A program made the translations under genes and the position numbers. A DNA stretch of 64,000 nucleotides from Acidilutibacter cellobiosedens. Its GTDB lineage: Bacteria; Bacillota; Clostridia; Tissierellales; Acidilutibacteraceae. Where the stretch lies: assembly GCF_004103715.1 (NCBI RefSeq), contig NZ_CP035282.1, forward strand, positions 372,001-436,000, read 5' to 3'. Below are positions 25,816-63,959 of this stretch, piece by piece (the first letter of the stretch is position 1; the number at the start of each line of letters is the position of its first letter). Below the pieces are notes generated by a model that saw nothing but the letters and a program-made list of their open reading frames with translations, was not told the origin of the DNA and made no database searches.

Positions 25816-25944
25816 TATATTGTAAATTAAATACATTAATATTATCAAATATACTTTATATAATATAAAAGTAAGAAATAAGCAACCTGGAAGTTAAAGA
25901 TTTAAGAAGAATGGAAAGCTCATATTGCAAGTACCCCTAAAATA

Positions 25945-25982: not shown

Positions 25983-26192
25983 AGGATATATTGTTCGATA
26001 AAGATTAAAAGGAAAACGTTTAATGAATATAACAAAAACTATAAATTTCTGCGGTAATACTGAGTATATTCGGTTATTTAAGAATGAAAAACAAGAATAT
26101 TTACTAAATTGATCAAAGCAATATTTGAGTATACGAGGGAATAAGGTATAGTTGAATTAAAAAACAAGGAGAGTTTAATGGGGAGGAATAAT

Positions 26193-27428
26193 ATGACTTA
26201 CAAATTTAGCGAACATAGTGGAAGAATAATAAATCAAAACAAAGTGGTCTTAGGAAATAGGCAAACCGGACAGTGGATGAGAATTTCAAAAGAGGTATAT
26301 GATATCTTAAATTTGGGAATAGATAATAATCTTTCAATAAGTGAACTAAAAATGAGTTTGTATGATGAAGAAGACAAAAATTATATATCTCAAATATATC
26401 TCAAGTTATGCAATATAGGTATTATTGAAGATGAAAATAATAAGCAAGTTTTGCCAAATAAATTAGCTGTATTTGAAATGACTCATAGATGTAACTTAAA
26501 ATGTATTCATTGTTGTATAGATGCTGATGACCTTGTTAGTGATAATCAAGATTTATCTACCGAGGAAACCAAGTGTGTATTATATAAAATAATAGAATGG
26601 AATCCTAAAAGAATACTTTTAAGTGGTGGAGAACCAATGATTAGAAAGGATTTTAAATATTTACTAAAGTATTTAAGAAATAATTATCATGGAACTATAA
26701 TTGTTTCTACAAATGGGACTCTTATAAACAGTGATAATGTAGATAATTTAGTAGAATGTTCTGATGAAATATCCATTAGTGTTGATGGAATAAACGAAGA
26801 AACGTGTTCTATAGTGAGAGGACATGGAGTATTTGATAAGGTTATAAATAGTGTGAAATTATTACAAAGCAGAGGATTTAAAAGAATAACTTTATCTATG
26901 ACAACGGGTGATAAAAATGAATATTTAGAAGATGATTTTAATGAATTGAATAGATTGTTGGGGACAAAACCTTGCATTAGAGGATTTGCACCGATTGGAA
27001 GAGGAGAAAAAAATAGATCATATTTTTCAAGTTATGAGAAAAATGAAATACATGTACCAAATAAATTTATAAGTGATAATTATAATAATCCGATGGTGAT
27101 GCTTTCTTGTGGGGGTGGAAATAGAGAAATATTTATAGCGCATAATGGTGATATATATCCTTGTCCCTCATTTCTTAGACCGAAATATTTGATGGGAAAT
27201 ATTTTAAAGTTGGATAAATTATCTAATTGGAATAAGGAAGTTTATAAACTATTAAAAGAAATAGATCCCAATAATTATAAAATATGCAAAGGTTGTAAAG
27301 TTAATTTGTTTTGCTGGACATGTTTGGCGCAACTTGACAGTGTAAGAGATAATGGTAAAGCGATAGAAAATAAGTGTAAAAAGGTAAAACCAGTATTATT
27401 TAAAAGAATTTGGGGTTCTGTAAATTAA
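26193..27428 (+). CDS. Radical SAM/SPASM peptide maturase 1a with N-terminal RRE-like domain
   Basis: 411-residue maturase. Residues 1-90 form a PqqD-like winged-helix (TGQWMRISKEVYDIL), the expected precursor-recognition element. The radical-SAM cluster motif CNLKCIHC uses Cys100, 104 and 107, followed by SGGEPMIRKDF. The C-terminal SPASM region has cysteines in SCGGGNREIF, YPCPSF and CKGCKVNLFCWTC for auxiliary Fe-S clusters. Such enzymes make thioether or C-C crosslinks in Cys-containing peptides. Two starts are possible (26178 and 26193); alignment with its paralogues favours 26193, which has GGGGAGG upstream. The precursor gene follows after 79 bp. Confidence 0.88.
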   Translation: MTYKFSEHSGRIINQNKVVLGNRQTGQWMRISKEVYDILNLGIDNNLSISELKMSLYDEEDKNYISQIYLKLCNIGIIEDENNKQVLPNKLAVFEMTHRCNLKCIHCCIDADDLVSDNQDLSTEETKCVLYKIIEWNPKRILLSGGEPMIRKDFKYLLKYLRNNYHGTIIVSTNGTLINSDNVDNLVECSDEISISVDGINEETCSIVRGHGVFDKVINSVKLLQSRGFKRITLSMTTGDKNEYLEDDFNELNRLLGTKPCIRGFAPIGRGEKNRSYFSSYEKNEIHVPNKFISDNYNNPMVMLSCGGGNREIFIAHNGDIYPCPSFLRPKYLMGNILKLDKLSNWNKEVYKLLKEIDPNNYKICKGCKVNLFCWTCLAQLDSVRDNGKAIENKCKKVKPVLFKRIWGSVN

Positions 27429-27507: not shown

Positions 27508-27675
27508 ATGTTGAAAATTAAAAAGATAGAGGACAAAGATTTTGTTGAGGTATTGGCGCAATATGATTGTCAAGTTCTTCATAAACCGAAGTCATATGGT
27601 GATAATGATAGCAGTTGTTTCTTTGATTGTTTGTCTCCACCACATCCTAGTTACTATAAATCTCCTGATCTTTAA
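27508..27675 (+). CDS. Candidate Cys-containing RiPP precursor A (55 aa)
   Basis: A 55-codon gene with GAGGGGGGA upstream, between a radical-SAM maturase and an ABC permease. The leader MLKIKKIEDKDFVEVLAQ is nearly the same as in precursor B (57252): by eye 11 of the first 18 residues match, and Cys21 is shared. The core has Cys21, Cys37 and Cys41 (C-FFD-C), an acidic/aromatic middle and a Pro/Ser/Tyr-rich tail ending SPDL. No similarity to housekeeping proteins is visible. A strong terminator directly follows, as expected for a highly made peptide. The modification type is not predictable from sequence alone. Confidence 0.78.
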   Translation: MLKIKKIEDKDFVEVLAQYDCQVLHKPKSYGDNDSSCFFDCLSPPHPSYYKSPDL

Positions 27676-27729: not shown

Positions 27730-27769
27730 TTATAAAAAAATGATAAATTCAATAAAACTTTTTCAGAGT

Positions 27770-30344: not shown

Positions 30345-30364
30345 ATAGAACTGGGGGAGATACA

Positions 30365-31612
30365 ATGGGATATAGATTTAGTAATAGCAGTAGGTATATA
30401 ATAAATGAAAATAAAGTAGTATTGGGGAATCGATATACAGGATTATGGATAAGAATTTCGAAAGAAGTATATGATATTTTAGAATTAGGAATAAATAATG
30501 ATTTTTCATTAAATGAATTAAAGTGTTGTTTATATGATGAAGAAGATAGAAATTATATAGATAGTTTATATAAGAAATTATGTTATATGGAAATCATAGA
30601 AGATAGAAATCCCAAAAAGAGATTAGAAAATAAAATGGCATCGTTTGAAATAACTCATAGATGTAATTTAAAATGTATACATTGTTGTATAGATGCTGAT
30701 AGTATTGTTAGCGATAAAAAGGATTTAAGTACTAAAAAAGTACAAGAAGTGTTAAATAAACTCATAGAGTGGGGTCCTGCACGAATAATGCTCAGTGGTG
30801 GAGAGCCACTGGTTAGAAAAGATTTTACAAAACTCCTAATTTATTTAAGAAAAAGTTATAAAGGTAAGATAGTGGTTTCTACAAATGGTACTCTTATAAA
30901 TGAATCTAATTCAGAAATTTTATCTAAATGTGCTGATCAAATAGATATTAGTTTAGATGGTATAGACGAAAAGACTTGCAAAGTAGTAAGAGGTACTGGG
31001 ATATTTGATAAAGTTATAAATAGTGTAAAATTATTACAAAACAAAGGGTTTAAAAATATAACTTTATCTATGGTTATAGGAGATAAAAATCAATATTTAG
31101 AAGGAAAATTTAATGAATTAAATAAAATGTTAAATACAATACCGCTCATTAGGGTATTTTCAGCTGTTGGGAGAGGATTAAATAATAGAAGTTCTTTTTT
31201 AAATGGCGGAGAGGATGAGACATATGTGCCATCAAATTTTTTGGATGATAATTATGATAAGCCATTTGGGATGTGTAATTGTGGTGCTGGGGAAAGAGAA
31301 CTATTTATAACTTATAATGGGGATATATACCCATGCCCTGAATTTATGAAATCAGAATATTTACTTGGTAATATATTTAATATAAACAAGATATCAGAAT
31401 TGAGTATATTCACAAATAATAATATAAAAAATTATAATTTATTATATATGTTAAATTATGAAAATTATAAAGAATGTATAAATTGTAAGGTAAATTTATT
31501 TTGCTGGACTTGCCCTGGACAATTAGAAGAATTAAAAAATAATAAGTTAGCTATTGAAGATAAATGTAAAAAAATTAAACCAGTACTGTATAAAAGGATC
31601 TGGGAGAGATAG
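30365..31612 (+). CDS. Radical SAM/SPASM peptide maturase 1b with RRE-like domain
   Basis: 415-residue paralogue of maturase 1a: the same N-terminal winged-helix (YTGLWIRISKEVYDILELG), the cluster motif CNLKCIHC, SGGEPLVRKDF, and SPASM cysteines in MCNCGAGERE, YPCPEF and CINCKVNLFCWTC. The ATG at 30365 has GGGGGAGA upstream; the frame extends upstream into permease A, but without a start site. A second, different radical-SAM gene follows after 10 bp. No precursor gene lies next to this pair, so it may act on precursor A or on a lost peptide (inference). Confidence 0.87.
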   Translation: MGYRFSNSSRYIINENKVVLGNRYTGLWIRISKEVYDILELGINNDFSLNELKCCLYDEEDRNYIDSLYKKLCYMEIIEDRNPKKRLENKMASFEITHRCNLKCIHCCIDADSIVSDKKDLSTKKVQEVLNKLIEWGPARIMLSGGEPLVRKDFTKLLIYLRKSYKGKIVVSTNGTLINESNSEILSKCADQIDISLDGIDEKTCKVVRGTGIFDKVINSVKLLQNKGFKNITLSMVIGDKNQYLEGKFNELNKMLNTIPLIRVFSAVGRGLNNRSSFLNGGEDETYVPSNFLDDNYDKPFGMCNCGAGERELFITYNGDIYPCPEFMKSEYLLGNIFNINKISELSIFTNNNIKNYNLLYMLNYENYKECINCKVNLFCWTCPGQLEELKNNKLAIEDKCKKIKPVLYKRIWER

Positions 31613-31622
31613 GTGGGAGATA

Positions 31623-32642
31623 ATGCCAGCCATATTTTGGGTTACAACGAGATGTAATTTAAATTGCAAATATTGCTATGAAGGGAAAAATAAATATGAA
31701 AAATCAATGTCAAAAGATGTTGTAGATAGAGCTATTGAATATACATTAGATTATTTCAAAGATAGAGAAACAGATAAAAAAGAATTGATTGTTCCTATAC
31801 ATGGAGGAGAACCATTTTTAGAGTTTGGGACTATAAAGTATGTTGTAAAAAAATTTAGAGAGCAATGCGATAAAAAAAGCACAAAATTACTATTCTGTAC
31901 AACTACAAATGGAACGTTGTTAAATGATGAAATGATTGATTTTATTGTAAAAGAAATGATTGATGTGACAGTAAGCATAGATGGGACAAAAAAGACTCAT
32001 GATAAAATGAGGCCGTTTAAAAGTGGCGAGGGAAGTCATGATATAGTTTTAAAAAATGTATACAAACTGATCAAATATAAACCTAATATAAGAATAAGAA
32101 TGACATTTGACAGTGATACTGTGTGTAGTCTGTTTGAAGATATAAAATACTTAATTGACAGAAAATTTAAGGTTATAGTTCCCGCTCCGAATTTGTTCGA
32201 CACGAATTGGGATGATAAACATGTGGCTATTCTTGAAGATCAGATTCGGAAAATAAAAGAGTATGCAAATGGGAGAAAAGATTTGTTAATAAGTATTATA
32301 GATGGGAATTTATATTTTCCGAAGGGTTATTGTAGGGGAGGTGATACGAGTTTTCATATATATCCAGACGGAAAAATATATCCGTGTATATTATCCGCTG
32401 GAAATGATGAATTTTGTATAGGAGATATATATAACGGGATAAATGAATTGAGAAGAGATTATTTATTAGGATTTTCTAAAATAAGAAATCCTGATTGTTA
32501 TGGATGTAAATTATATAATTATTGTGATGGCCCGAGATGTAAAATTGTAAACAAGATAATAACTGGGGATTATTTTTCACCGCCACCTATGAACTGTTCT
32601 TTAGAAAATTTACAGTACAAGATAAATCTTTTGAATAAATAA
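31623..32642 (+). CDS. Radical SAM/SPASM peptide maturase 2a (no RRE)
   Basis: 339 residues. The cluster motif CNLNCKYC is at Cys11, 15 and 18, right at the N-terminus, so there is no recognition domain; it probably relies on the partner maturase for peptide binding. HGGEPFLEF follows. The SPASM end has YCRGGDTSFHIYPDGKIYPC and CYGCKLYNYCDGPRC, then a final NC. This is the anSME/peptide-maturase branch. The ATG at 31623 lies 10 bp after the stop of maturase 1b with AGGTGGGAGA between them; an upstream ATG at 31554 is inside that gene. Pairs with 1b as 2b pairs with 1c. Confidence 0.86.
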   Translation: MPAIFWVTTRCNLNCKYCYEGKNKYEKSMSKDVVDRAIEYTLDYFKDRETDKKELIVPIHGGEPFLEFGTIKYVVKKFREQCDKKSTKLLFCTTTNGTLLNDEMIDFIVKEMIDVTVSIDGTKKTHDKMRPFKSGEGSHDIVLKNVYKLIKYKPNIRIRMTFDSDTVCSLFEDIKYLIDRKFKVIVPAPNLFDTNWDDKHVAILEDQIRKIKEYANGRKDLLISIIDGNLYFPKGYCRGGDTSFHIYPDGKIYPCILSAGNDEFCIGDIYNGINELRRDYLLGFSKIRNPDCYGCKLYNYCDGPRCKIVNKIITGDYFSPPPMNCSLENLQYKINLLNK

Positions 32643-39843: not shown

Positions 39844-39844
39844 A

Positions 39845-41428: not shown

Positions 41429-41542
41429 TTCCTTCTCTTCCTCCTCCCAGTTTATACTGAAAGGATACCATATTTTCTTAAGAAAGTGACCTAATTTTCA
41501 ATGAGCCAGCTGACCTATTTTTAGATTAGCATAAACAGACCC

Positions 41543-42696
41543 AGCGGAAGCGGGAAATCAACTCTGCTTCATCTTTTGGGAGGCCTTGACAGGCCAACGG
41601 AAGGGACCGTTAAAATAAACGGTGATGATATATATAAATTTTCGGAGGATATGCTGGCTAAATACAGAAGAACAAATATAGGGTTTGTATTTCAGCAGTA
41701 CAATTTAATATCCGTATTAGATGCAAGAGAAAATATAGAGCTGCCAATAAGACTTGATAAAAAAATACCTGATAAAGAATATATAGATAAACTGATAAAT
41801 TTTTTGGGACTCACTGAAAGACAAGAACATTTTCCAAATCAGCTTTCAGGAGGGCAGCAGCAGAGAGTGGCTATAGGAAGAGCGTTGGCAGCAAAGCCAA
41901 GTATAATACTTGCAGACGAACCTACGGGGAATTTGGATACGAAAACTACTGAAGAAGTAATGAAGCTTCTTGAAATGTCCAGCAGAGAATTCAATCAAAC
42001 GCTGATAGTTATAACCCACAATACCAGTATAGCTAAGAAAGCGGAGAGAGTGATTTCTATAGTAGACGGAAAAATTCAATAGATGTTTTATAGTAAGCAA
42101 AGGTGATACATATGAAAAATAAAGTAAAGGCAGTACTGATGGATACGGGAGTTGATAAAAATCACGAATATCTGAAAGATAATATAATAGGAGGAATGTC
42201 TTTTAGCTGTGATGATGAATATATAACGGCGGATGATAATTATGAAGACGAGAACGGCCACGGGACTTCCTGTGCCTCCGTTATAAAGAGAGAATTCAAG
42301 GATGTGGAAATATTTGCGGTGAAAGTCCTTGATGAAATGGGAAGGACAAACATACAGATATTAGAAGAAGCCTTAAAGTATTTCTTGGATAAGAATTTCA
42401 GGCTTATAAATTTGAGCTTGTCGGTTATAGAAAATGAAGAAGTGGAAGACTTGTACGGAATATGCGGGAAGCTGAAAGAAAAAGGCAAGATAATTGTATG
42501 TTCCCTTGCAAACGGATTTGAAAAAAGTTATCCTGCTTCATTTGATAATGTTATAGGTGTTAAGGGCTTTATATTGGAAGATGAAAACTCTTTCTGGTAC
42601 AGCAAAGATAAAGATATCCAGTGCATCATGGACAATAACCCGTATATGAACTGCAAACCAGGAAATTCTTATGCTCTGTTCGGAAAATGCAACAGT
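41543..42696 (+). repeat. ATPase-subtilase repeat block, copy 1
   Basis: The ATPase 3' part, the 29-bp gap and the first 195 subtilase codons are colinear and nearly identical with 60226-61379 (offset 18683 bp). ATPase B at 35305 shares the ATPase part, followed by a decayed subtilase start. Confidence 0.85.
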
Positions 42697-43137
42697 CAGG
42701 CAGCAGGAAAACTTACGGGAAAGATTGCCCGTATGTTATCGGAAGAACCGGAAATGACATTTGAATCATTAAATGACAAACTCGAAATCATGGCTCGCAG
42801 AAACAACTGGACAGAAAGGGATTTGCAAGCAAGCAAAAGGTACCCCGACTTTAAGAAAAATTTATATGACAAAAACAGTCCCATTCTTTTAAAGACAGCG
42901 GATGCCGTAAAAGAAGCACTAAAATTAGATAAATCCGATGGTATATACGAATATGGCCTTTTCAGCAGGAAAATCGGATTAACATATGATAACTGCTTTG
43001 AAGTATTAAAGAAACTGGAAGGAGAATTTAATATTAAATTTGATTATCCCAATATATCAAGATATGATTTCATATCAATAGAAACCCTAACGGATCTTGT
43101 AGCAAAGACCTTATCATATCAAAAAGATAATATATAA
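42112..43137 (+). CDS. Intracellular S8 subtilase fused to an acyl-carrier-like C-terminal domain
   Basis: 341 residues with no signal peptide or propeptide, so it acts in the cytoplasm. Catalytic triad by motif: Asp11 (VLMDTGVD), His50 (ENGHGTSCAS), Ser195 (CNSQAAGKLTG), oxyanion Asn134 (SLANGF). After residue 210 comes a spacer and, at about 265-335, a helical segment ending GEFNIKFDYPNISRYDFISI then ETLTDLVAKTL, which looks like the second half of an acyl carrier protein. The carrier Ser position seems lost (YDNCFEVL). The likely job is leader removal from the modified peptide. AAAGGTG precedes the ATG; the in-frame GTG at 42103 is less likely. It follows the ATPase and precedes the exporter. 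Confidence 0.85.
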   Translation: MKNKVKAVLMDTGVDKNHEYLKDNIIGGMSFSCDDEYITADDNYEDENGHGTSCASVIKREFKDVEIFAVKVLDEMGRTNIQILEEALKYFLDKNFRLINLSLSVIENEEVEDLYGICGKLKEKGKIIVCSLANGFEKSYPASFDNVIGVKGFILEDENSFWYSKDKDIQCIMDNNPYMNCKPGNSYALFGKCNSQAAGKLTGKIARMLSEEPEMTFESLNDKLEIMARRNNWTERDLQASKRYPDFKKNLYDKNSPILLKTADAVKEALKLDKSDGIYEYGLFSRKIGLTYDNCFEVLKKLEGEFNIKFDYPNISRYDFISIETLTDLVAKTLSYQKDNI

Positions 43138-43172
43138 TTTCCATTAACATAAATAATGATGGAGATGAAAAA

Positions 43173-44927
43173 ATGAACAAAAGGAAAAACATAAAAAGGT
43201 TTTTAAAAATATTGTTAAAAAACAGTAAAGGCATTATGCTTATATACTTTATCATAATGCTCTCCATATCAGTATTGGGCCTTTTTCAGCCTCAGCTGAT
43301 AAAGAGAATCCTCGACGATGCCATACAGGGGAGCAATATTAAATTACTGATAAAACTTGCAATATTATACGGTTTAATAAGCCTCATAACAGCCATGCTT
43401 AATATAATACTGCAGTATATGTACTCCAAGATGCAGAAGAAAATCTCAATCAATTTGAAGATGAATATCCTAAAACATATATCAAAACTATCGGGGAATT
43501 ATTTTACAAACATAAAAACCGGGAATATACTTAGCACCATAGAAAACGACATATACACCATAGAAAGTTTTGGAGTTGACGTATTATTCTCATTAATAAT
43601 AGACATTTTCACAGCCGTCATGGCTTTATTCTTTCTAATAAAAATGGAATCAAGCCTGCTGATTTTAGTTGTATTACTTCAATTCATTCTGATGTTCAGC
43701 CAATTCAAATTCAATAAGATCATATCGGAAAGAATAAGTGAAATAAGAAACAAAGCAGGAAACATATCAAACATAATAGAAGAATACATATCGAACATAA
43801 TGAACGTAGTAATAACAAAATCGATCTTTAAATTCTTTAAAAACTATATAAACAAAGAAAAAAACATCATAAAGAAATTCGTAAAACTTGACGTTATCAT
43901 TTCATGCAATTCCTCCTGGGGAAGACTTTTAAGCAGCTTAATAACAATATTAATCTACGGATACGGAGGATACAAAATAATAAACAAAGAAATGACCTTC
44001 GGTGAACTCATTGCATTTCAGCAATATGTAGGAATGTTCATAGGGCCCTGCATGGAAATAATAAACGCAAACACCAAAATACAGAGATCTTCAGTATCAA
44101 TAAACCGAGTATTTAATATAACAGACGAACCAATAACCATAAAACAAGACAATAAAGGGAAAAGATGCACCGAAGACTTCAAAGGAAACATCTCATTCAA
44201 CGAAGTCAGCTTTTCCTATAACAAAGACAATAAAATCTTGGACAAGATAAACCTAAAATTTGAAAACGGAAAAGCGACAGCATTAGTAGGATCAAGCGGC
44301 TGCGGAAAAACAACAATAATCAAACTTCTGTACAGACTTTGGGATGCGGACGAAGGAAACATAACAATAGACGGAATACCATTAAAAGAATACAACCTGA
44401 AAAGTATAAGAAAAGAGATCTCAATAGTAACCCAAGATCTTTTATTATTCGACGATACAATAATGAATAATTTAACCTTAGAAAAAAATAAAGATAAGAG
44501 CTATGTAGAAGATTTATGCAGAAAAGCGGGGATCTATAACTTCATCTCAAATCTTCCCCAAGGATTTGACACAATAGTAGGAGAAAGAGGAGTAAAACTG
44601 TCAGGAGGACAGAAACAGAGAATAGCCATAGTAAGAGCCATATTGAACAATTCAAAGATAATAATATTTGACGAAGCCACCTCAGCCTTAGACAGCATAT
44701 CCCAAAAGAAAATATCCGAAAACATGAAAGAATTCTTAAAAGAGAAGACAGTCATAGAAATAGCCCATAGATTATCCTCAATAAAAGATGCAGATATCAT
44801 ATATGTAATACATAAAGGGAAAGCAGTGGAAAAAGGGAACTTTGAGGAATTGGTAGAAAAGAAGGGATATTATTACAGATTCTTGAAGGAACAAAGTATG
44901 GATTCCGATGCAGATTCTATTGCATAG
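43173..44927 (+). CDS. ABC exporter (membrane plus ATPase domains), peptidase-less
   Basis: 584 residues: six membrane helices in the first ~310 residues, then an ATPase domain with Walker A GSSGCGKTT, signature LSGGQKQRIAIVRAI, Walker B IIIFDEATSALD and H-loop IEIAHRL. There is no N-terminal C39 peptidase domain, so leader cleavage must come from another protease, presumably the subtilase 35 bp upstream. Likely exporter of the mature peptide. ATGGAGATG precedes the ATG. Complete; its paralogue at 48480 is broken by an IS. Confidence 0.9.
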   Translation: MNKRKNIKRFLKILLKNSKGIMLIYFIIMLSISVLGLFQPQLIKRILDDAIQGSNIKLLIKLAILYGLISLITAMLNIILQYMYSKMQKKISINLKMNILKHISKLSGNYFTNIKTGNILSTIENDIYTIESFGVDVLFSLIIDIFTAVMALFFLIKMESSLLILVVLLQFILMFSQFKFNKIISERISEIRNKAGNISNIIEEYISNIMNVVITKSIFKFFKNYINKEKNIIKKFVKLDVIISCNSSWGRLLSSLITILIYGYGGYKIINKEMTFGELIAFQQYVGMFIGPCMEIINANTKIQRSSVSINRVFNITDEPITIKQDNKGKRCTEDFKGNISFNEVSFSYNKDNKILDKINLKFENGKATALVGSSGCGKTTIIKLLYRLWDADEGNITIDGIPLKEYNLKSIRKEISIVTQDLLLFDDTIMNNLTLEKNKDKSYVEDLCRKAGIYNFISNLPQGFDTIVGERGVKLSGGQKQRIAIVRAILNNSKIIIFDEATSALDSISQKKISENMKEFLKEKTVIEIAHRLSSIKDADIIYVIHKGKAVEKGNFEELVEKKGYYYRFLKEQSMDSDADSIA

Positions 44928-51389: not shown

Positions 51390-52810
51390 TTCCTCCTTGC
51401 AATCTAATCAATTACAAGGATAATATATTGGTCAGATGTCTGCAATGGCATTTGCAATATTGGGGAAATTACCTCTGCAAAAGTGGGGAATTCTACTTTG
51501 CAATATTGGGTAATTTTATTTTACAGCAAACACTCTAGTACTTATTCAAAATAAACTTACTAACAAAATTGCTAATCAAACTAATATAATTAGAAAAAAA
51601 TATGGTGAAAATTCAAGCTTAATACAAGAATATATATCTAATATTATGAATATAGTATTGTCAAAATCAAAGCTTAAGTTTTTTAAAACTTATTTAAGAA
51701 AAGAAAAAGATCTTATAAAAAAATATATAAATATAGATATGACAATAGGAGGAAACATGTTAATTGCAAAAATTTTTAGTGCTTTAATTATGGTTTGTAT
51801 ATATGGATATGGCGGATATATAGTAATAAAGGGGAATATGACATTAGGTACATTACTTGCTTTTCAAGAATATACTACTATGTTTATAGGCCCTTGTATA
51901 AATATAATTAGGGCAAATAATAGAATTCAGCAAACTAAAGTATCGATTGATAGAGTTTATTTTTTGCTTGATGAAGAATCTGATATTAAAATAAACGATA
52001 AAGGATATAAATTGCTGAAAGGGAATATAAACGAAATTGAATTTAAAGATGTTTATTTTAAATATTTAAATAAAGAAAAGGCAGATAGTAATTATGTATT
52101 AAAAGATATAAATCTTATGTTTAAAAAAGGTGCTACATCAGCGATTGTTGGTGAAAGTGGATGCGGAAAAACAACCTTGGTAAATTTAATCTATAGATTC
52201 TGGGATGTTAATGAAGGAAAAATATTAATAGATGGAATAAATATTAAAGATATAAATCTTCTCACTCTTAGAAAGAGTATTAGTGTTGTAAGTCAAGATA
52301 TTCTTATGCTTGATGATAGTATTAGAAATAATATAATTCTTTCCAGCACGATAAATGATGAAGAAATACTTAGAATTTGCGAGGTAGTTGGTTTAACCGA
52401 TTTTGTGAAAGGTTTAAAAGATGGTTTAGATACCGTAATAGGAGAAAAAGGCGTAAAAATATCAGGTGGACAAAGGCAAAGAATCTCAATAGCAAGGGCT
52501 CTTGTAAACGATAACGATATACTTGTTTTTGACGAAGCTACATCCGCCCTTGATAATATATCACAAGCCTATATATTAAAAAATATGAAGAAATATATGC
52601 AAGATAAAATAGTAATAATTATTGCACATAGACTCTCGACAATTAAAGATGCAGATAATATATATGTATTGCACAATGGAAAAATAGTTGAGTCTGGTAA
52701 TAAAGAAGAATTAAAATTAAATGATGGAATATATAATAAACTTGTAAAAGCTGATGCATAGAATTTAAAGGTTTTAATATCTACACAACTGTCTAAAATG
52801 GAGTCTTGTT

Positions 52811-53035
52811 TTAATAGTAAGGTTCCAATTCGCCAATCCGTTTTTCTTTTGAATAATTATATCGGCATCTGTATAATTTTCCGTTCACTTTTTTGTACCT
52901 CCAGCCGATAATATAGGGAAACGGAGTTATTAAGTGATCGGATTGTGGTGAAGCAAAGACATCTCTGGGTAAGAGAGTTATGCCAATACATATTGAAATA
53001 ACACACACAGATATTTTCCTTCTAATTTCTTTCAT
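52811..53035 (-). CDS. Small secreted protein, copy 2 (shortened)
   Basis: 74 residues, paralogue of the 93-residue protein at 23820. Same signal peptide (RRKISVCVISICIGITLL) and same GWRYKKVNGKLYR motif, but about 19 residues are missing right after the signal peptide and the end is ELEPYY rather than EWEPC. It overlaps the M56 gene by 14 bp, like copy 1. It has diverged much more than its neighbours in the triad. Function unknown. Confidence 0.7.
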   Translation of the reverse strand: MKEIRRKISVCVISICIGITLLPRDVFASPQSDHLITPFPYIIGWRYKKVNGKLYRCRYNYSKEKRIGELEPYY

Positions 53036-54122
53036 CCTTTTGCACCTCTTTTATATTTTTATATATGGGTAAGTCTGCAGGCAAATTTTTAACATCATTG
53101 ACAGTAACAAAGAATTTATTATTGACATAAAGATCATAAGTATTGTCTCGATTTTTAACTAAATATGAATTTTCCTTTGTAAGCTCAACCGTATCGGAAG
53201 CATCTTTAGGAGATATAGAATAAGGTTCAAATACAAAACAAAAAGATAAAACAACCAACAATAATACCGGCATAACCATAAAAAAGACATTCTTCAATTT
53301 GAATTTTTCTTTTTGTGTGGAATTTTCCAAAACTATGTGAAATCGCTGAGAAAGAGTAGAAACGTTTTCGCTGTCAAAGTTTAGTACCACTTTATTCACA
53401 TATTTACCAGTATGATGTTTTGCTATTTTTAGAAGACATTCCAGATATTCAATTCGTTTCGATTCACACATTGATTTTGTGGCAGTGAGATCCGTATGTA
53501 TTTCAAGTACTTTGGATACTTGTCTCCTTAACATATATATAAAAGGATTCCACCAATATATAATACATAAAAATTCAACAATTACTTTAATCAATAAATC
53601 GCCATGGTAGTAGTGGGCTACCTCGTGGCTAAAAATGTAGTACCATTCGTTTTCCGAAAGTTCTATTTGAGGAATAACGATCCATGGTTTCCGTATACCC
53701 AGTACCATGGGAGTAGAGACAAGATTAGCTTGTATAATTTTAAAACTCATCGGCTTACTGTAGTTTTGAAGTACTTTCCGCAAAGCACCTTGAATCTCTG
53801 GATTTCTTACCACAGGAAATTTATTTATCACTTTTGTAAAATTTTTATAAATGATTATTGCTTTACTCAATTGGATGATTGATCCCATTAACCAAATTAA
53901 ACCCATAATATGCAGAAGACAGATATTATGACTATTTAGTTTTAATATTGGTTTTCTAAAGGGAAAAACAATTTTTGGAAGAAGACGTTTGAAAATTAAA
54001 TTATTCGAAAAGGAAAATTCAAAAGGAATCAGCAGCCTGATAACAATAACAAAGATGCAGAAAAATAATGCACCAATTCCAAGTTTTTTGATTGAATTAT
54101 TATTTCGTAAAAAGAAGTACAT
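53022..54122 (-). CDS. BlaR1/MecR1-like M56 membrane metalloprotease, copy 2
   Basis: 366 residues from the first ATG, about 12 differences from the copy at 24088. Zinc motif FSHEVAHYYHGDL: the second Asp-like position is Gly here (HDD becomes HGD) while HExxH is intact. Again no penicillin-binding sensor domain. As in copy 1 the frame extends upstream of the ATG through another hydrophobic helix to a ribosome site that is followed only by ATT or ACG codons. In the BlaI operon next to radical-SAM unit 2. Confidence 0.85.
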   Translation of the reverse strand: MYFFLRNNNSIKKLGIGALFFCIFVIVIRLLIPFEFSFSNNLIFKRLLPKIVFPFRKPILKLNSHNICLLHIMGLIWLMGSIIQLSKAIIIYKNFTKVINKFPVVRNPEIQGALRKVLQNYSKPMSFKIIQANLVSTPMVLGIRKPWIVIPQIELSENEWYYIFSHEVAHYYHGDLLIKVIVEFLCIIYWWNPFIYMLRRQVSKVLEIHTDLTATKSMCESKRIEYLECLLKIAKHHTGKYVNKVVLNFDSENVSTLSQRFHIVLENSTQKEKFKLKNVFFMVMPVLLLVVLSFCFVFEPYSISPKDASDTVELTKENSYLVKNRDNTYDLYVNNKFFVTVNDVKNLPADLPIYKNIKEVQKDERN

Positions 54123-54186
54123 TAAAACAATCGATATACTACTAAAAAAAAGAATAGTTAAAAAAGCAGTAAAAGAGAAGGACGTT

Positions 54187-54600
54187 TTAATTCCCTCCTT
54201 TCAGACGTTTTTTTCTTTCTTCAAGCATTTTTTCAAGCTCTTCTATAACAGCTTCCTCGTTTTTTTCGTGCTCCAGCAAGGTAGCAACAATAGTGGGCGT
54301 GGGAATATCTTTATTTAAATTTTGAAACTGTTTGACAAATTGTTTAAGAAAAAAATCGTGTGAACTTATAGTCGGTTTATATCTGCGGGAAAGAACAGTT
54401 CCGCTATGAACAATATCGGAAACCTCAATAAGCTTTTTTTTCAGCAGATTTCTTAAAACAGCCTGAGCCGTATTTATACTTATGGAATTATCTATTTGGG
54501 GGATGTCTGAGGCCAGCAACGGTTTTTCAGCAGACCATAAAATATTCAAGATATCTAATTCTCTCTCAGTTAATTCAAAACGATTATTTTGTTTTGGCAT
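54187..54600 (-). CDS. BlaI/MecI family repressor, copy 2
   Basis: 137 residues, protein-identical by eye to the repressor at 25253. The ATG at 54600 is used because AAAAGGAGAG precedes it and copy 1 has the same start; the frame is open further upstream but without a start site. Divergent to radical-SAM unit 2. Two identical repressors would bind the same operators, linking both units. Confidence 0.9.
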   Translation of the reverse strand: MPKQNNRFELTERELDILNILWSAEKPLLASDIPQIDNSISINTAQAVLRNLLKKKLIEVSDIVHSGTVLSRRYKPTISSHDFFLKQFVKQFQNLNKDIPTPTIVATLLEHEKNEEAVIEELEKMLEERKKRLKGGN

Positions 54601-54648
54601 TGAAAACTCTCCTTTTATAAAATTAATATTAAAATCATTTTCAATTTC

Positions 54649-54677
54649 ATTATAAACATAAAAATAAAATATGTCAA
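54649..54677 (-). promoter_or_regulatory. Promoter of the BlaI/M56 triad (copy 2)
   Basis: Minus-strand TTGACA (54677-54672) and TATAAT (54654-54649), 17 bp apart, as in copy 1 at 25715-25743. Confidence 0.75.
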
Positions 54678-54720
54678 TTTTCAGCATATTATTAAATTAT
54701 AAAAAACATTATATATATAC

Positions 54721-54749
54721 TTGACAAAATATGAAATATATGATTTAAT
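54721..54749 (+). promoter_or_regulatory. Promoter of radical-SAM unit 2, shared-block type
   Basis: TTGACA at 54721-54726, 17 bp, TTTAAT at 54744-54749, then a block ending TAAATTAAATACATTAA as at 25787 and 45002. Here the first half of the TGTA-N7-TACA dyad is changed to TTTA. The leader to the maturase start is about 160 nt and lacks the hairpin seen in unit 1. Confidence 0.6.
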
Positions 54750-54916
54750 GATATTTTAAATTAAATACATTAACAGTATTTTAACTGTATTATAATTCAG
54801 ACATAATAGTAAAAAGAATAATATAGTTTTGGATAATAAACAGACTGTGAATAAATAATGGATGATCATTTTTATAAGTGAATCTAAAGAATTATTTTTA
54901 AAATGGGGTGTACAGA

Positions 54917-56152
54917 ATGAACCTTCCAAAGATTGCTTTTAGTAATTATACACGCACTATTGAATATGATAATAAAGTTGTAATATATAATAGAAAAAAT
55001 GGACAATGGATTAGGGTGTCGAAGGAAGTATATGATATATTTAAATATGCCGTAAATAATAAATTAAATATTAATGAATTAAATAACTGCATAGTAAATG
55101 ATGAAGATAAAAAGTTTATGACAGAAGTCTATAACAGACTTTTTAATAAAAAGCTTGTTAATAATACTTTTAAATCTAATAATATTAAATCCATCAGTTT
55201 TGAACTGACTAATAGATGTAATTTGAAATGTATCCATTGTTGTGTAGATGCGGATATTAATCATAGATATGAACTCTCAACAGTACAGATAAAAACTCTT
55301 TTTGATAGGGTACTACCTTGGAACTCTGATTCAATAATGTTGAGTGGGGGAGAACCCATGATTAGAAAAGATTTTATAGAATTATTAATATATTTAAGAA
55401 ATAAGTATAGCGGGGAAATAATATTAGCAACTAATGCAACATTAATCGATGATGAAAATATAAACTTTTTAGTAGAAAATGTTGATAAAATAGATATTAG
55501 TATCGACGGCATTGATGAAAAAAGCTGTTCACAAATTAGGGGTAAGGGTGTATTTAAAAAAGTTATAAAGAATATAGAAAAATTGAAAAAGGTGAACTAT
55601 AATAATATAACTTTGTCGATGGTTGTAGGTGATAAAAATGAGGACATGGAAGAAAAGTTTATTGAATTAAACAAAAGTTTGGGGACTCATCCTGTGCTAA
55701 GGAGATTCTCCCCTATAGGTAGAGGGAAATATAATGATGGGTATTTTTTAGATGATAGTGGAGGAAAATTTTTTATATCTAAAAAGTATCTTTCCGACGA
55801 TTATAGCGGCCCGATTAATATATGTACATGCAGTGCAGGGAGTGAAGAAGTTATCGTAAGATATAATGGGGATGTTTATCCTTGCCCTAGTTTTATGAAC
55901 GAAAATATGTTATTAGGGAATTTATGTTCGGATGATTTTGCCGATAAATTATTTACCAAAAATTATGATTTGTTAGAGGATGTTATTTATAAAAGATTTT
56001 CGGAATGCCGAGATTGTAAAGTTAATATATTTTGTTGGACTTGTCCGGGAAGCTTGGTAGATATTAAAAATATTAGAAATTTTTCTAATAGGTGTGATAA
56101 ATTAAAACCAATTTTATTTAAAAGAGTGTGGGGCGAATATTTATGTCAATAA
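54917..56152 (+). CDS. Radical SAM/SPASM peptide maturase 1c with RRE-like domain
   Basis: 411 residues, homologue of maturases 1a and 1b: N-terminal winged-helix (NGQWIRVSKEVYDIFKYA), cluster motif CNLKCIHC, SGGEPMIRKDF, SPASM cysteines in ICTCSAGSEE, YPCPSF and CRDCKVNIFCWTC. The ATG at 54917 has GGGGTG six bases upstream; a GTG at 54908 is an alternative. The end overlaps the next maturase gene by 10 bp. First gene of unit 2, which also holds precursor B. Confidence 0.87.
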   Translation: MNLPKIAFSNYTRTIEYDNKVVIYNRKNGQWIRVSKEVYDIFKYAVNNKLNINELNNCIVNDEDKKFMTEVYNRLFNKKLVNNTFKSNNIKSISFELTNRCNLKCIHCCVDADINHRYELSTVQIKTLFDRVLPWNSDSIMLSGGEPMIRKDFIELLIYLRNKYSGEIILATNATLIDDENINFLVENVDKIDISIDGIDEKSCSQIRGKGVFKKVIKNIEKLKKVNYNNITLSMVVGDKNEDMEEKFIELNKSLGTHPVLRRFSPIGRGKYNDGYFLDDSGGKFFISKKYLSDDYSGPINICTCSAGSEEVIVRYNGDVYPCPSFMNENMLLGNLCSDDFADKLFTKNYDLLEDVIYKRFSECRDCKVNIFCWTCPGSLVDIKNIRNFSNRCDKLKPILFKRVWGEYLCQ

Positions 56153-57165
56153 CGTTATGGATCACAAATAAATGTAATATGAATTGCAAGTATTGTTATG
56201 TAGGTGATGAAAAAAGTAATTTTTCTATGCCAAAACTAATTATTGATAAGTCGATTGAATTTATATTTAAAAATTTTGGTAAATATAAAGATAACGTGAA
56301 TGATTATCTTATGGTAAGATTTCATGGAGGAGAACCATTAATTGAGTTTAATTTAATAGAAGATATAGTAAAAAAAATAAATTATAGAAAGAAAGATAAA
56401 AATTTTAAATTTGCGATAACTACAAATGGTACGATATTAGATAAAGATATAATTTTATTTTTAAAGAACGAAATATACGACTTAACGGTTAGTTTAGATG
56501 GGAACAAAAAAACGCAGGATACTATGAGGCCTTTTAAAGATGGCAATAGCAGTTTTGAAAAAGTTTTAAAAAATGCTGAAATTTTAGAAAGAGAAATCGG
56601 TAACATTAGAATTAGAATGACCTATGATTCAAATACTGTTTATAATCTTTATGATGATATTAAGTTTTTAATTGATGAAGGCTTTAAATATATTGTACCG
56701 GCCAGCAATAATTATGATATTAATTGGGATGAGGATGATGTGGAATGTTTGAAAATAACAATAATTAAGTTGAGAGAATATATAAAGGCAAGGGGAACAT
56801 CAAATGTTCATATATCATTATTAGAAAAACCTCAATATATTAATAAAGGAAAATGTAATATGGGGAATAAAAGCATAAATATATATTCAAACGGAGATTT
56901 ATATCCATGTATTGCTTCTTCCGGCAGGAAAGGGTTTAAAATGGGGAATATTTTTTCTGGTTTAGATGAAGATAGAAGAAATAAAATAATATATGAATCA
57001 GAATGTGAAAGAGAATGTGCATGCAGAGGCTGCAGTATATATAATTATTGTGACGGCTCAAGATGCAGAATAGTAAATAAACTGACTACAGGTGATTATT
57101 TTACTCCCCCGGCAATACATTGTGCAGTTGAAAATCTTAAATATAGTTTAAATAAATATGTATGA
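56143..57165 (+). CDS. Radical SAM/SPASM peptide maturase 2b (no RRE)
   Basis: 340 residues, homologue of maturase 2a. Cluster motif CNMNCKYC starts at Cys11, then HGGEPLIEF; SPASM cysteines in KCNMGNKSINIYSNGDLYPC and CRGCSIYNYCDGSRC, final HC. The ATG at 56143 overlaps maturase 1c, so the two are co-translated and probably act on the same peptide: one brings recognition, the other a second modification (inference). Confidence 0.86.
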   Translation: MSITLWITNKCNMNCKYCYVGDEKSNFSMPKLIIDKSIEFIFKNFGKYKDNVNDYLMVRFHGGEPLIEFNLIEDIVKKINYRKKDKNFKFAITTNGTILDKDIILFLKNEIYDLTVSLDGNKKTQDTMRPFKDGNSSFEKVLKNAEILEREIGNIRIRMTYDSNTVYNLYDDIKFLIDEGFKYIVPASNNYDINWDEDDVECLKITIIKLREYIKARGTSNVHISLLEKPQYINKGKCNMGNKSINIYSNGDLYPCIASSGRKGFKMGNIFSGLDEDRRNKIIYESECERECACRGCSIYNYCDGSRCRIVNKLTTGDYFTPPAIHCAVENLKYSLNKYV

Positions 57166-57220: not shown

Positions 57221-57251
57221 AAATAAATCAAATCGGGAAGGAGGGGAGAAT

Positions 57252-57431
57252 ATGCTGAAGATTAAAAAAATTAATGATAAAAAATTAGTCGATATTATTG
57301 CACAAGATAATTGTACTAAGCCAGGAGAAAGTGTTGTTTTCCAAAGAGGGCAAGACTGTCAAGACGATTGCCATAAGCAGGGCGAAGCACCAAGTTTCAC
57401 AAGTACATGGACTCAATTTGTATTTTGTTAA
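57252..57431 (+). CDS. Candidate Cys-containing RiPP precursor B (59 aa)
   Basis: A 59-codon gene with GGAGGGGAGA upstream, between maturase 2b and permease E. The leader MLKIKKINDKKLVDIIAQ matches precursor A closely, with the shared Cys21. The core has Cys36 and Cys40 (C-QDD-C, same CxxxC spacing as A), an acidic/Gln-rich middle and a final Cys59 as last residue. The core differs strongly from A, the classic conserved-leader and variable-core pattern of RiPPs. Permease E starts 16 bp after the stop, with no terminator between. Confidence 0.78.
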   Translation: MLKIKKINDKKLVDIIAQDNCTKPGESVVFQRGQDCQDDCHKQGEAPSFTSTWTQFVFC

Positions 57432-57447
57432 TGAGGAGGCATATTAT

Positions 57448-60021
57448 ATGTTTAAATTATCATTAAAATATATAAGGTATTATAAAAAAAGGGCTTTTTC
57501 TATTTTGATTGGGATGATTTTAAGTGTTGCTGTTATTGTAAGTATAACAATATTAAATAAAAGTGCCAATCAGGCAGATGTTGACCGTGTAAAATACGAT
57601 GGAGGGAGTTATAATACTGTTTTTAAAAATTTAGACAATACAAGGATGAAAAAAATTAAAAAAGACAAGTCAATAAAAGACAGAGGATTTGCAGGGTACT
57701 ATGATTCCGTTGCCTTAAGTGATGATTTTTATTTATATGTTATAAGAGCAAATACAGAATACATAAAATTAGGAAGTTCTTTCGATGAGAGTTCATTTAT
57801 CAAAGAAGGAAGGTATCCTAAAAATGATAATGAAATTGCTGTTGAAGAGTGGGTTTTAAACGTACTTGGAGAAGAACCCAAGGCAGGCAGTGATGTAAAG
57901 CTTAAACTGAAAGACAGAAATGAAGAAAAGATGTATAAGTTAGTCGGTATATTAAGAGACAGGCCTGAATTTAAAAGGACAATGACACTTCAGGTATTTT
58001 TACCCATTCCTTATAATTATAATTTTGAGGGAAATACGAATGTGGCCATGGTAACTTTTAAGGATGAAAACAGCATAAATAAATCAACAGCCTTACTGTC
58101 CAAGAAACTAAATATTAAGAGTGATGACATAATAAAAAACATGGAATTAATAGAGGTTTACAAAAATTTAAATAATATTGACAAAAATACTGTTTTTTCG
58201 TTTTTTATAATATTAGCAGTTTCTTTTATAGTTATATACGGAATATACAGTATATCCATCCTTCAGAGGATATCGGAATACGGAATTTTATTGGCTGTAG
58301 GGAGTAACAAGAAACAGCTTATAGGAATAACATTATGTGAACTGTTTGTTTTAAGTGCCGTAAGTATTCCAGCAGGTTACTTGTTGGGATTAATCGGCTC
58401 AAAATTATTAAGCGGTTTAGTCGGAAATGTATTCACAGAAGGAGCCGTCACTATAAGGAAGCTTGTTATACCAAAGGAAGCCTTCATTATACCTGTGGTT
58501 GTTATAGTATCAGTTATATTTATGATTACTTTGGCAATATATATGACCATATCAAAGATATCACCCATAGAAGCCATAAGAAAAAATTTAGGCAGGGAAA
58601 AAGTTACAAGGAAGAAAATACATAAAAAAGCAGCTCCAATGAGTAATCTGTCCGTATATTCAGTTATAATTATAAGGAATATTCTTTCCAACAGCAAAAG
58701 CTTTTTGATGATTGTTTTGTCAATAAGTATTGCGGGAGTGTTGTTTGTAAACGCAAGCTATTTGAGCTTTATGGAAAGGAGACAGGCAGACAATATAGCA
58801 GACATGATAGGGTATAATTCGGACTATAAGATAAATTTTGTGCCCGGTGCAAAAAAAACGGATGGATTGAGCAGTGAAGAATTAGAAAAAATAAAATCCT
58901 TAAAGGGAGTAAAAAATTTATCAGCCATACAGACAATATATTCTAGACTGTTGACAAGCAGGGTACATATATCGGAGCCAATGTATTTTGAAGACATAAA
59001 CAGTAAGCCTTATATAAAAGAAATAATGAACGGCATGTTAGTCAGAAATTTAAAAGCAACGGACAAATCAGAAGAATATATTTTGAAAAATAATATGTAC
59101 GGATATGATGATAAATCCCTTGACAAACTGAAAAAATACTTGGTAAAAGGTGAGATTGACGTTAACAAGATGAAAAAAGAAAATATTGCTGTTATAAGGA
59201 TACCAAATCCTATCAATACAGCAAATAAAAATCCTTATGTTGCAAACTTTAAAATAGGAGACAAAATAAGAATTGCCTTTTCAACCAAAGGAACGAACTC
59301 GGAAGAAGATTGGAAAGTCAATTATAATGATGAAAGCTATGAATATAAGGAATACACTGTGGGAGGGATAGTAAACAACCTTTTAGATTATGATAATTAT
59401 TATACCACGGACAACAGTGTTGATGTTGTTTTATCTTCAGATATATTTAAAAGGGATACAGGAATAATCCAATATAAAATTATAAGTATCAACAAAGAAA
59501 GAGGAATAAATCACAATGTTTTAAACAACAAAATCAAATCGGTAATTGAGAAGAAACCGGGAGTTATTCTAAGAGATTTGGACAAAGAAATAGAAAACTT
59601 TAATATACTGAATAAAAATAAGCAGAGATTTATGAATGCAATTGTAATGGTACTGTTTATTATGGGAGTATTTAATATAGCAAACAACATTAAATACAAT
59701 ATAGCATCTCGAATGAAGGAATTTGGGATGCTGAGAGCTGTTGGCACTACAGATGAAGGCCTTAAGGGTATGTTTTTGAGGGAAGGTTTCTTATACGGCG
59801 CTATATCGAGTATGGCGGTAGTTATATTCGGGGTGCTTGTTCAGTATATCTTATATAAGAAATATTTAACTATATATATAAACCCTGTTTTTAAGATACA
59901 ATGGAGGGAATATTTCTTTATTATTATTGTAAATTTTATAATAACAATTTTAACAACATATTTATCATCTGTGAATATAAGAAAAACGGCAGTAGTAAAT
60001 ATGATAAGAAATAATGAATAA
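57448..60021 (+). CDS. FtsX/MacB-type ABC permease E
   Basis: 857 residues with the two-FtsX, eight-helix layout (first helix near AFSILIGMILSVAVIVSITI, centre YGIYSISILQRISEYGILLA, end TYLSSVNIRKTAVVNMIRNN). The ATG at 57448 follows TGAGGAGG. A longer frame from 57298 overlaps precursor B in another frame and is not real. Its ATPase follows at 60103. Immediately follows the precursor, as permease A does in unit 1, so it is a candidate cognate immunity or transport protein. Confidence 0.86.
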   Translation: MFKLSLKYIRYYKKRAFSILIGMILSVAVIVSITILNKSANQADVDRVKYDGGSYNTVFKNLDNTRMKKIKKDKSIKDRGFAGYYDSVALSDDFYLYVIRANTEYIKLGSSFDESSFIKEGRYPKNDNEIAVEEWVLNVLGEEPKAGSDVKLKLKDRNEEKMYKLVGILRDRPEFKRTMTLQVFLPIPYNYNFEGNTNVAMVTFKDENSINKSTALLSKKLNIKSDDIIKNMELIEVYKNLNNIDKNTVFSFFIILAVSFIVIYGIYSISILQRISEYGILLAVGSNKKQLIGITLCELFVLSAVSIPAGYLLGLIGSKLLSGLVGNVFTEGAVTIRKLVIPKEAFIIPVVVIVSVIFMITLAIYMTISKISPIEAIRKNLGREKVTRKKIHKKAAPMSNLSVYSVIIIRNILSNSKSFLMIVLSISIAGVLFVNASYLSFMERRQADNIADMIGYNSDYKINFVPGAKKTDGLSSEELEKIKSLKGVKNLSAIQTIYSRLLTSRVHISEPMYFEDINSKPYIKEIMNGMLVRNLKATDKSEEYILKNNMYGYDDKSLDKLKKYLVKGEIDVNKMKKENIAVIRIPNPINTANKNPYVANFKIGDKIRIAFSTKGTNSEEDWKVNYNDESYEYKEYTVGGIVNNLLDYDNYYTTDNSVDVVLSSDIFKRDTGIIQYKIISINKERGINHNVLNNKIKSVIEKKPGVILRDLDKEIENFNILNKNKQRFMNAIVMVLFIMGVFNIANNIKYNIASRMKEFGMLRAVGTTDEGLKGMFLREGFLYGAISSMAVVIFGVLVQYILYKKYLTIYINPVFKIQWREYFFIIIVNFIITILTTYLSSVNIRKTAVVNMIRNNE

Positions 60022-60102: not shown

Positions 60103-60765
60103 ATGCCTATATTAAAAACTGTAAACTTAAATAAGATTTACGGAGAAGATGAAAATAGAGTATATGCATTGAAGGATATAAATATGAGAGTAGATAAAGG
60201 AGAGTTTGTAGCAATAATAGGACCCAGCGGAAGCGGGAAATCGACGCTTCTTCATCTTCTGGGAGGTCTTGACAGACCAACGGAAGGTACCGTTGAAATA
60301 AACGGAGATGATATATATAAATTTTCGGAGGATATGCTGGCTAAATACAGAAGAACAAATATAGGGTTTGTATTTCAGCAGTACAATTTAATATCCGTAT
60401 TAGATGCAAGAGAAAATATAGAGCTGCCAATAAGACTTGATAAAAAAATACCTGATAAAGAATATATAGATAAACTGATAAATTTTTTGGGACTCACTGA
60501 AAGACAAGAACATTTTCCAAATCAGCTTTCAGGAGGGCAGCAGCAGAGAGTAGCTATAGGAAGGGCGTTGGCAGCAAAGCCAAGTATAATACTTGCAGAC
60601 GAACCTACGGGGAATTTGGATACAAAAACTACTGAAGAAGTAATGGAACTTCTTGAAATGTCCAGCAGAGAATTCAATCAAACGCTGATAGTTATAACTC
60701 ACAATACCATTATAGCGAAGAAAGCAGAGAGAGTGATTTCCATAGTAGACGGAGAAATTCAATAG
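60103..60765 (+). CDS. LolD/MacB-like ABC ATPase E
   Basis: 220 residues, intact: Walker A GPSGSGKST, signature [16 protein letters not shown], Walker [13 protein letters not shown]. Four residues differ from ATPase B (35305). GAGAGGAG precedes the ATG. From codon 42 on, the DNA is colinear with the 3' part of ATPase C and the following subtilase (constant offset 18683 bp) until 61379. Partner of permease E. Confidence 0.92.
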   Translation: MPILKTVNLNKIYGEDENRVYALKDINMRVDKGEFVAIIGPSGSGKSTLLHLLGGLDRPTEGTVEINGDDIYKFSEDMLAKYRRTNIGFVFQQYNLISVLDARENIELPIRLDKKIPDKEYIDKLINFLGLTERQEHFPNQLSGGQQQRVAIGRALAAKPSIILADEPTGNLDTKTTEEVMELLEMSSREFNQTLIVITHNTIIAKKAERVISIVDGEIQ

Positions 60766-61379
60766 ATGTTTTATAGTAGATAAAGGTGATACATATGAAA
60801 AATAAAGTAAAGGCAGTACTGATGGATACGGGAGTTGATAAAAATCACGAATATTTGAAAGATAATATAATAGGAGGAATGTCTTTTAGCTGTGATGATG
60901 AATATATAACGGCGGATGATAATTATGAAGATAAAAACGGCCACGGGACTTCCTGTGCCTCCGTTATAAAGAGAGAATTCAAGGATGTGGAAATATTTGC
61001 GGTGAAAGTCCTTGATGAAAAGGGAAGGACAAACATACAGATATTAGAAGAAGCCTTAAAGTATTTCTTGGATAAGAATTTCAGGCTTATAAATTTGAGC
61101 TTGTCGGTTATAGAAAATGAAGAAGTGGAAGACTTGTACGGAATATGCGGGAAGCTGAAAGAAAAAGGCAAGATAATTGTATGTTCCCTTGCAAACGGAT
61201 TTGAAAAAAGTTATCCTGCTTCCTTTGATAATGTTATAGGTGTTAAGGGCTTTATATTGGAAGATGAAAACTCTTTCTGGTACAGCAAAGATAAAGATAT
61301 CCAGTGCATCATGGACAATAACCCGTATATGAACTGCAAACCCGATAATTCTTACAGCCTGTTCAGAAAATACAACAGT
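60226..61379 (+). repeat. ATPase-subtilase repeat block, copy 2
   Basis: Partner of 41543-42696. Ends at the recombination junction in the catalytic-serine codon region of the truncated subtilase. Confidence 0.85.
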
Positions 61380-61406
61380 GCATTTTGTATTCAAGAAAGA
61401 GAGTGA
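60795..61406 (+). pseudogene. S8 subtilase, truncated at the catalytic serine
   Basis: The first 195 residues match the intact subtilase at 42112 with a handful of changes (Asp11, His50, Asn134 and Ser195 all kept). At about 61380 the sequence switches to the upstream region of permease A, adding AFCIQERE and a stop: 203 residues instead of 341. The helix after the catalytic Ser and the carrier-like C-terminal domain are lost, so it should be inactive. The break is a recombination junction, not a point mutation. Confidence 0.87.
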
Positions 61407-63892: not shown

Positions 63893-63956
63893 TTATATTC
63901 CATCAAGAAAGATAAAAAAATTATCAATAGTCGAATCTATAAATGCTGTGGAGTAG
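61416..63956 (+). pseudogene. FtsX-type permease A' with nonsense codon
   Basis: A copy of permease A at constant offset 33612 bp, same length, about eleven scattered amino-acid changes. Codon 133 is TGA (61812-61814) where permease A has TGG, so the product stops after 132 residues; the remainder stays open from 61815 and has a TTG at 61827 without a clear ribosome site. The last ~25 codons switch to the permease-B-like ending (KIKKLSIVESINAVE). Likely inactive unless reinitiated. Confidence 0.87.
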
Positions 63957-63959
63957 AGA

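Follow-up and report, generated by a model that had tools for sequence, protein, structure and literature searches.

The precursor gene and its neighbours

The window that we analysed, a stretch of 64,000 nucleotides from Acidilutibacter cellobiosedens, carries on its forward strand a short open reading frame (57252..57431, exact coordinates confirmed) preceded by a Shine-Dalgarno-like ggaggggag (57240..57248). It encodes a peptide of 59 residues, precursor B, with the translation MLKIKKINDKKLVDIIAQDNCTKPGESVVFQRGQDCQDDCHKQGEAPSFTSTWTQFVFC. Alignment and motif counts delimit a predicted leader of 18 residues (MLKIKKINDKKLVDIIAQ, 57252..57305), the family alignment places the core motif C36-Q-D-D-C40 (CxxDC) at 57357..57371, and the C-terminal extension QFVFC, which includes Cys59, occupies 57414..57428.

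On the same strand, two radical-SAM/SPASM enzymes are encoded upstream: rSAM1-B (54908..56152; PF04055, PF13186 and the CteB profile), with an N-terminal RRE-like domain, and the PapB-like rSAM2-B (56143..57165), without an RRE. Downstream, an 857-residue FtsX-type ABC permease (57448..60021; PF02687) starts 16 bases past the stop codon of B, followed by a LolD/MacB-like ABC ATPase recognised by profile matches (60103..60765) and by a copy of an S8 protease gene (60786..61406) that breaks off right behind the NS of its catalytic-Ser motif, with a breakpoint at 61379. On the reverse strand, an M56 (BlaR1-like) peptidase and a BlaI-type repressor (53022..54687) likely regulate the unit.

Precursor A (27508..27675, forward strand) has 55 residues (MLKIKKIEDKDFVEVLAQYDCQVLHKPKSYGDNDSSCFFDCLSPPHPSYYKSPDL) and lies beside rSAM1-A1 (26178..27428, forward). 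A third copy, C, adjoins rSAM genes elsewhere in the same genome (G000:C1:1508307; locus L006:8308-8472). As the initial annotation had it, A and B share the leader start MLKIKKI and Cys21, carry CxxxC near the same place (residues 37-41 in A, 36-40 in B) and each precede an FtsX-type permease (starting at 27804 and 57448, respectively). Their leaders are alike and their cores otherwise different: ungapped, A and B have 13 identities in residues 1-21 and 2 after, and among A, B and C 11-13 of the first 21 residues are common and almost none beyond. A further forward-strand pair, rSAM1-A2 (30365..31612) and rSAM2-A (31554..32642; 48% identical to rSAM2-B), has no adjoining precursor, and we saw no precursor ORF in the gap between this pair and the next permease.

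B had also been described as an independent unit. This holds for the rSAM pair, the permease and the ATPase; because the adjoining S8 gene is truncated, however, B must borrow an S8 protease, either the copy at 42103 or one elsewhere in the genome. The copy at 42103..43137 (forward; PF00082) is intact and QhpE-like, with a subtilisin fold, the conserved Asp, His and Ser of the catalytic triad and no evident signal peptide; it is likely the leader peptidase for both A and B. Adjoining it, an ABC exporter with membrane and ATPase domains (43173..44927, forward; PF00664, PF00005) likely exports the peptide. The last ~90 residues of the protease (42838-43137) form, in the window and in relatives, a domain that resembles acyl/peptidyl carrier proteins: its best PDB profile match is 2lki (E 9e-4) and most other matches are carrier proteins, while the window copy seems to lack the attachment Ser.

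The gene array looks amplified and rearranged. The BlaI/M56 pairs are near-identical duplications (24016-25839 and 52950-54773, 97.5%; the products of the first match PF05569 and PF03965), as are the FtsX permeases (27764-30345 and 61376-63957, 98.1%). IS21-type istA/istB insertions split a LolD-like ATPase gene (insertion 39079-41428 within 38853-42082) and a second ABC exporter (49138-51389 within 48480-52761). More than 1 Mb away in the same genome, S8 and exporter genes (L006:13307-16001) are 99.3% identical to window 42099-44793, an identity that, judged from the sequences, is the mark of a recent duplication or gene conversion.

A precursor family in Clostridia

The ORF of B is short and matches no Pfam or NCBIfam model, as a chance reading frame would. 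Against this stands an HMM that we built blind, from other genomes' precursors alone, excluding the own genome and G192, which is near-identical. Among 1,315 six-frame ORFs from the window and two own-genome loci, the first three places went to C (E 2e-7), B (1e-4) and A (1e-3), and the fourth-ranked ORF had E 0.75. This test and the held-out loci below, which add to a total of 21 homologous precursors in conserved context, exclude a chance frame, to which we give practically no weight; it had been judged very unlikely from the start.

A precursor profile run against 249 genomes of the order gave 14 strong matches (E <= 1.1e-12), all in known cassettes, and the next-best match in these genomes had E 0.003. 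Relatives of rSAM2-B occur in 7 of the 249 genomes, the own genome included, and the six others carry precursors in their flanks. In a class-level search with an rSAM2 profile, true relatives scored 327-507 bits and SCIFF-like maturases, mostly longer ORFs, about 205-248 bits; four new genomes appeared at 327-420 bits. Each of these four held-out loci, chosen by rSAM2 score alone, contained one precursor with CxxDC, [DE][VLI]xxQ and [SN]xxx-stop, while the 25 other rSAM loci of this search yielded no precursor at E < 0.1. A genome-contig scan with rSAM2-B alone gave two weak relatives, neither with a family precursor, and none was found at the 33 loci with distant rSAM relatives in a viral-contig scan. 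A phylum sample, queried at E<=1e-45 with one sequence only, gave no new genome because this query lacked breadth; in the class, four more came up with the profile.

Plasmids carry the family as well, in Paraclostridium sordellii C171 (NZ_CP124282) and C116 (NZ_CP124296) and in Clostridioides difficile TW11 (NZ_CP045225). In all three records the peptide is annotated as a 'hypothetical protein', grouped with rSAM, S8 and ABC genes in one cassette. Such copies point to a trait that moves among gut Clostridia and is possibly antibacterial. The P. sordellii plasmid cassettes (L081, L082) adjoin an agr-type AgrB/autoinducer and LytTR regulator locus, which suggests that they are under quorum control.

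In total the family counts 21 precursors in 14 genomes or plasmids, with B and G192, and G238 and G241, as near-duplicates. Had no third genome carried leader relatives beside radical-SAM genes, the initial annotation would have failed; in fact, the same rSAM pair accompanies 18 additional precursors from 13 other genomes or plasmids. Its RiPP signature, a conserved leader with a variable core, is thereby supported: all 21 precursors share the leader, each next to rSAM1 and rSAM2. Among 15 relative loci that we profiled, rSAM1, rSAM2 and the precursor were present in every one, the S8 protease in 14 and a clear ABC exporter in 13. The locus without S8 belongs to G021, which has the protease in its other cassette. 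FtsX/LolD genes stand at some relative loci and are missing from several. From this distribution we take five genes as the core (rSAM1 with an RRE, rSAM2 without, precursor, QhpE-like S8 protease and ABC exporter) and the FtsX/LolD genes as accessory. Two cassettes with a single rSAM pair carry several precursors, two in G238 and three in G241 (L020, L021).

Most of the 21 precursors start with [L/F]K[IV]xKI. Their leaders end in [DE][VLI]xxQ in 18 cases and in the strict form [DE][LV]xxQ in 15 (with the G241c site taken at LDVKGQ); after shuffling, no more than 3 of 17 precursors showed the leader-end motif. (D/E)-(L/V)-X2-Q is the recognition motif of ElxP, a cytoplasmic S8 protease that cuts after the Gln (PMC10885120). 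The leader of B ends in the predicted S8 site DIIAQ|D, which has the wider form [DE][VLI]xxQ, and since this is a motif of the kind cut by ElxP, the core of B probably begins at Asp19. In the core, the CxxxC first noticed in A and B keeps both Cys throughout the aligned family, but its conserved form is the more specific CxxDC (19 of 21), the Asp being replaced by Ser or Asn in two precursors. A further Cys lies about 15 residues before CxxDC (in B, A, C and the G189 type) or usually 17 residues after it (in the G238 and C. difficile type). Each core holds one CxxDC and each precursor 3-5 Cys, and many cores have a conserved Tyr/Trp near the C terminus.

All precursors but B (20/21) end in Ser or Asn, three residues and a stop. 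The G192 copy, whose leader is identical to that of B in nucleotides, ends SYVSTLT-TAA; B has CAA at that codon, which adds QFVFC. Since the other 20 precursors all stop at the short position, stop loss (TAA to CAA) in the window copy is the simplest reading of the sequences, and a one-base sequencing error may also lie behind the CAA codon. The terminal Cys59 that had drawn attention is thus present in B but peculiar to it. We rejected the idea that it gives the family a fourth crosslinking Cys, and it is not evidence of a fourth conserved ring.

The extension might impair the product of B. The whole unit could be decaying: the stop loss is found in B alone, the adjoining S8 gene is truncated, and IS insertions and rearrangements lie nearby. 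We think it improbable, however, that B is a remnant, given that both radical-SAM enzymes of unit B are intact, with 99% identity to their G192 counterparts, that the leader is unchanged in nucleotides, and that an intact S8 protease and exporter stand elsewhere in the window. Against G192, nucleotide identity is 99-100% in the rSAM genes and leader, 87% in the core, 89.5% in the permease and 80-82% in the chromosomal flanks. This pattern is consistent with a recent transfer or recombination event and with a core and permease that change faster. Such change is suggestive of immunity co-evolution, although a recombination breakpoint would look alike.

The radical-SAM pair and known systems

Both rSAM1 and rSAM2 keep CxxxCxxC and seven SPASM Cys without exception. 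The profile alignment of rSAM1 to CteB spans residues 17-447 and thus covers the N-terminal RRE of CteB. In the AlphaFold model of rSAM1-B the N-terminus forms three strands and then three helices (bbb-aaa, pLDDT mostly 83-94), and Foldseek returns CteB as the best match, with EpeE also among the structural neighbours. A profile of the rSAM1 N-terminus by itself matched nothing among PDB sequences or in Pfam; our reading of this domain as a predicted RRE draws on the full-length CteB alignment and the modelled structure. In rSAM2-B the radical SAM domain comes first, and the match to CteB begins only at residue 100.

PapB (NF047865) is the best NCBIfam model of rSAM2 in all three members scanned, at 212 bits for rSAM2-B and 189 and 152 for the relatives, below the cut-off of 340. 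rSAM2 and the S8 protease fall below every curated cut-off, those of PapB and QhpE included. Like the PapA/PapB system (freyrasin), the family places Cys and Asp a few residues apart in the core and would rely on leader-dependent rSAM/SPASM maturation. It differs in the weak score of an rSAM2 without RRE, in a second, RRE-bearing rSAM that is always present and in the S8 protease. Where PapA has six CX3D repeats, the cores have one CxxDC and, in most, one further Cys, so that the repeated Cys-X3-Asp/Glu of PapB-family ranthipeptides is not found.

The QHNDH gamma-subunit system (QhpC/QhpD/QhpE/QhpF) offers, by analogy, rSAM crosslinking, cytoplasmic leader removal by a QhpE-like S8 protease and ABC export. 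Unlike in that system, we saw no amine dehydrogenase subunits or QhpG flavoprotein beside the precursor; the S8 protease carries the extra carrier-protein-like domain, and scores stay below the Qhp cut-offs (QhpE NF049966, 82 vs 165 bits; QhpD TIGR03906, 124 vs 453). Thuricin CD likewise pairs two rSAM/SPASM enzymes (TrnC/TrnD) with one short Cys-containing precursor, but here only rSAM1 has an RRE, the precursor lacks CxxxCxxxC, and an S8 protease and the [DE][VLI]xxQ leader end are present. CteB of the SCIFF system (5wgg/5why) is the closest solved structure for both rSAMs. SCIFF maturases, however, have their own RRE and 440-500 residues, the rSAM2 profile separates cleanly from them, the maturase score for TIGR03974 is 141 bits against a cut-off of 425, and SCIFF precursors are unrelated, with six Cys against 3-5. 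Epilancin 15x ElxP shares the leader-end motif [DE][LV]xxQ for a cytoplasmic S8 protease, but serves a lanthipeptide, and lanthionine enzymes are missing here.

No Pfam or NCBIfam model covers the precursors, and we rejected membership in a curated precursor family since nothing there was significant. The open literature that we searched (subscription papers, such as large rSAM-RiPP atlases, lay outside its scope) holds no named description of the family. Two candidate earlier reports were set aside: C. difficile 630 CD0162/CD0163 (PMC3132745, PMC4289311) are described as without the CX3CX2C motif, and a C. difficile bacteriocin element (PMC6807378) has different genes. Going by sequence comparison, the family is rare in Clostridia; by analogy it would work as the PapB, Qhp and thuricin CD systems do, while scoring below the curated cut-offs tested.

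A proposed pathway and its product

A short precursor with leader and variable core, with modifying enzymes encoded alongside at all 15 relative loci, supports B as a RiPP precursor. We consider it probable that the gene at 57252-57431 encodes the precursor of a peptide that is made on ribosomes, modified after translation and matured by the cassette as follows. By analogy with Qhp, PapB and TrnC/TrnD, we propose that the RRE-like N-terminal domain of rSAM1 binds the leader (residues 1-18) and that rSAM2, without an RRE of its own, pairs with rSAM1 on the same bound peptide. The pair would then link the core thiols of Cys21, Cys36 and Cys40 to neighbouring residues, the cytoplasmic QhpE/ElxP-like S8 protease would cut after Gln18, and the ABC exporter would secrete the product, with the FtsX/LolD-type ABC proteins exporting it or protecting the producer. 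In this scheme the precursor family, the five-gene cassette, the conserved catalytic residues and the motif at the leader end come from the sequences and the RRE from structure prediction, while the steps as events and the type of bond are inferred. In the Qhp system, QhpE removes the QhpC leader in the cytoplasm after rSAM crosslinking and QhpF then exports the product (PMC7876137).

As to the bonds, we tentatively favour PapB-type thioethers to the Asp beta carbon. PapB makes Cys-Asp thioethers and accepts Cys-Xn-Asp with n = 0-6 (PMC9413430), and the Asp of CxxDC would be one likely acceptor; it cannot be the sole one, because two precursors have Ser or Asn in its place. Those exceptions would sit well with a sactipeptide-type product, in which the rSAM pair joins Cys sulfur to alpha carbons and acceptors vary. 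TrnC and TrnD do this in thuricin CD, where two rSAMs act synergistically on each precursor in one complex (PMC12093266), and the sactisynthases StsB and AlbA are among the NCBIfam matches of rSAM1. Yet the maturase with the better score, rSAM2, comes closest to PapB, a maker of non-alpha links, the Asp is kept in 19 of 21 precursors, and TrnC and TrnD each carry an RRE or RRE-like domain, which rSAM2 lacks; we regard alpha-carbon links as fairly unlikely. More unlikely still, the Cys could stay uncrosslinked, in a disulfide (which CxxxC could form) or as metal ligands, with the rSAMs doing other chemistry, for instance epimerisation or C-C bonds at Tyr or Trp, which many cores conserve near the C terminus. 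The epimerase EpeE is a structural neighbour of rSAM1, but both enzymes have full SPASM Cys sets, their nearest relatives make thioethers, and CxxDC is the most conserved core element.

The product may serve as a bacteriocin or as a signal. Solventogenic clostridia offer a precedent, where SCIFF-derived ranthipeptides influence agr and sporulation (PMC8102284), and the agr-type locus beside the P. sordellii copies and the BlaI/M56 pair of the window units would suit a signal or intracellular regulator. Such a role, as opposed to an antibacterial one, is possible but somewhat doubtful: plasmid carriage, patchy distribution, amplified ABC permeases and the faster divergence of cores relative to leader and maturases speak rather for a bacteriocin with immunity.

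With due reserve, we envision that the family is a new class of RiPP. One rSAM with an RRE and one lacking it might work there as an obligate machine that knots CxxDC and a third Cys into thioether rings, and a subtilisin with a fused, degenerate carrier-protein-like domain might remove the leader intracellularly. Pfam and NCBIfam have no curated precursor model for this family, despite its defined leader, invariant core motif, predicted cut site and cassette of five genes. The predicted cut after Gln18 gives exact expected masses for the unmodified core of B, 4624.98 Da (41 residues) or 4000.71 Da in the 36-residue form, less a predicted 2.016 per ring. The family offers a clean test of two radical-SAM enzymes sharing one recognition domain; it can also tell if Cys-Asp links still form when a PapB-like enzyme lacks an RRE.
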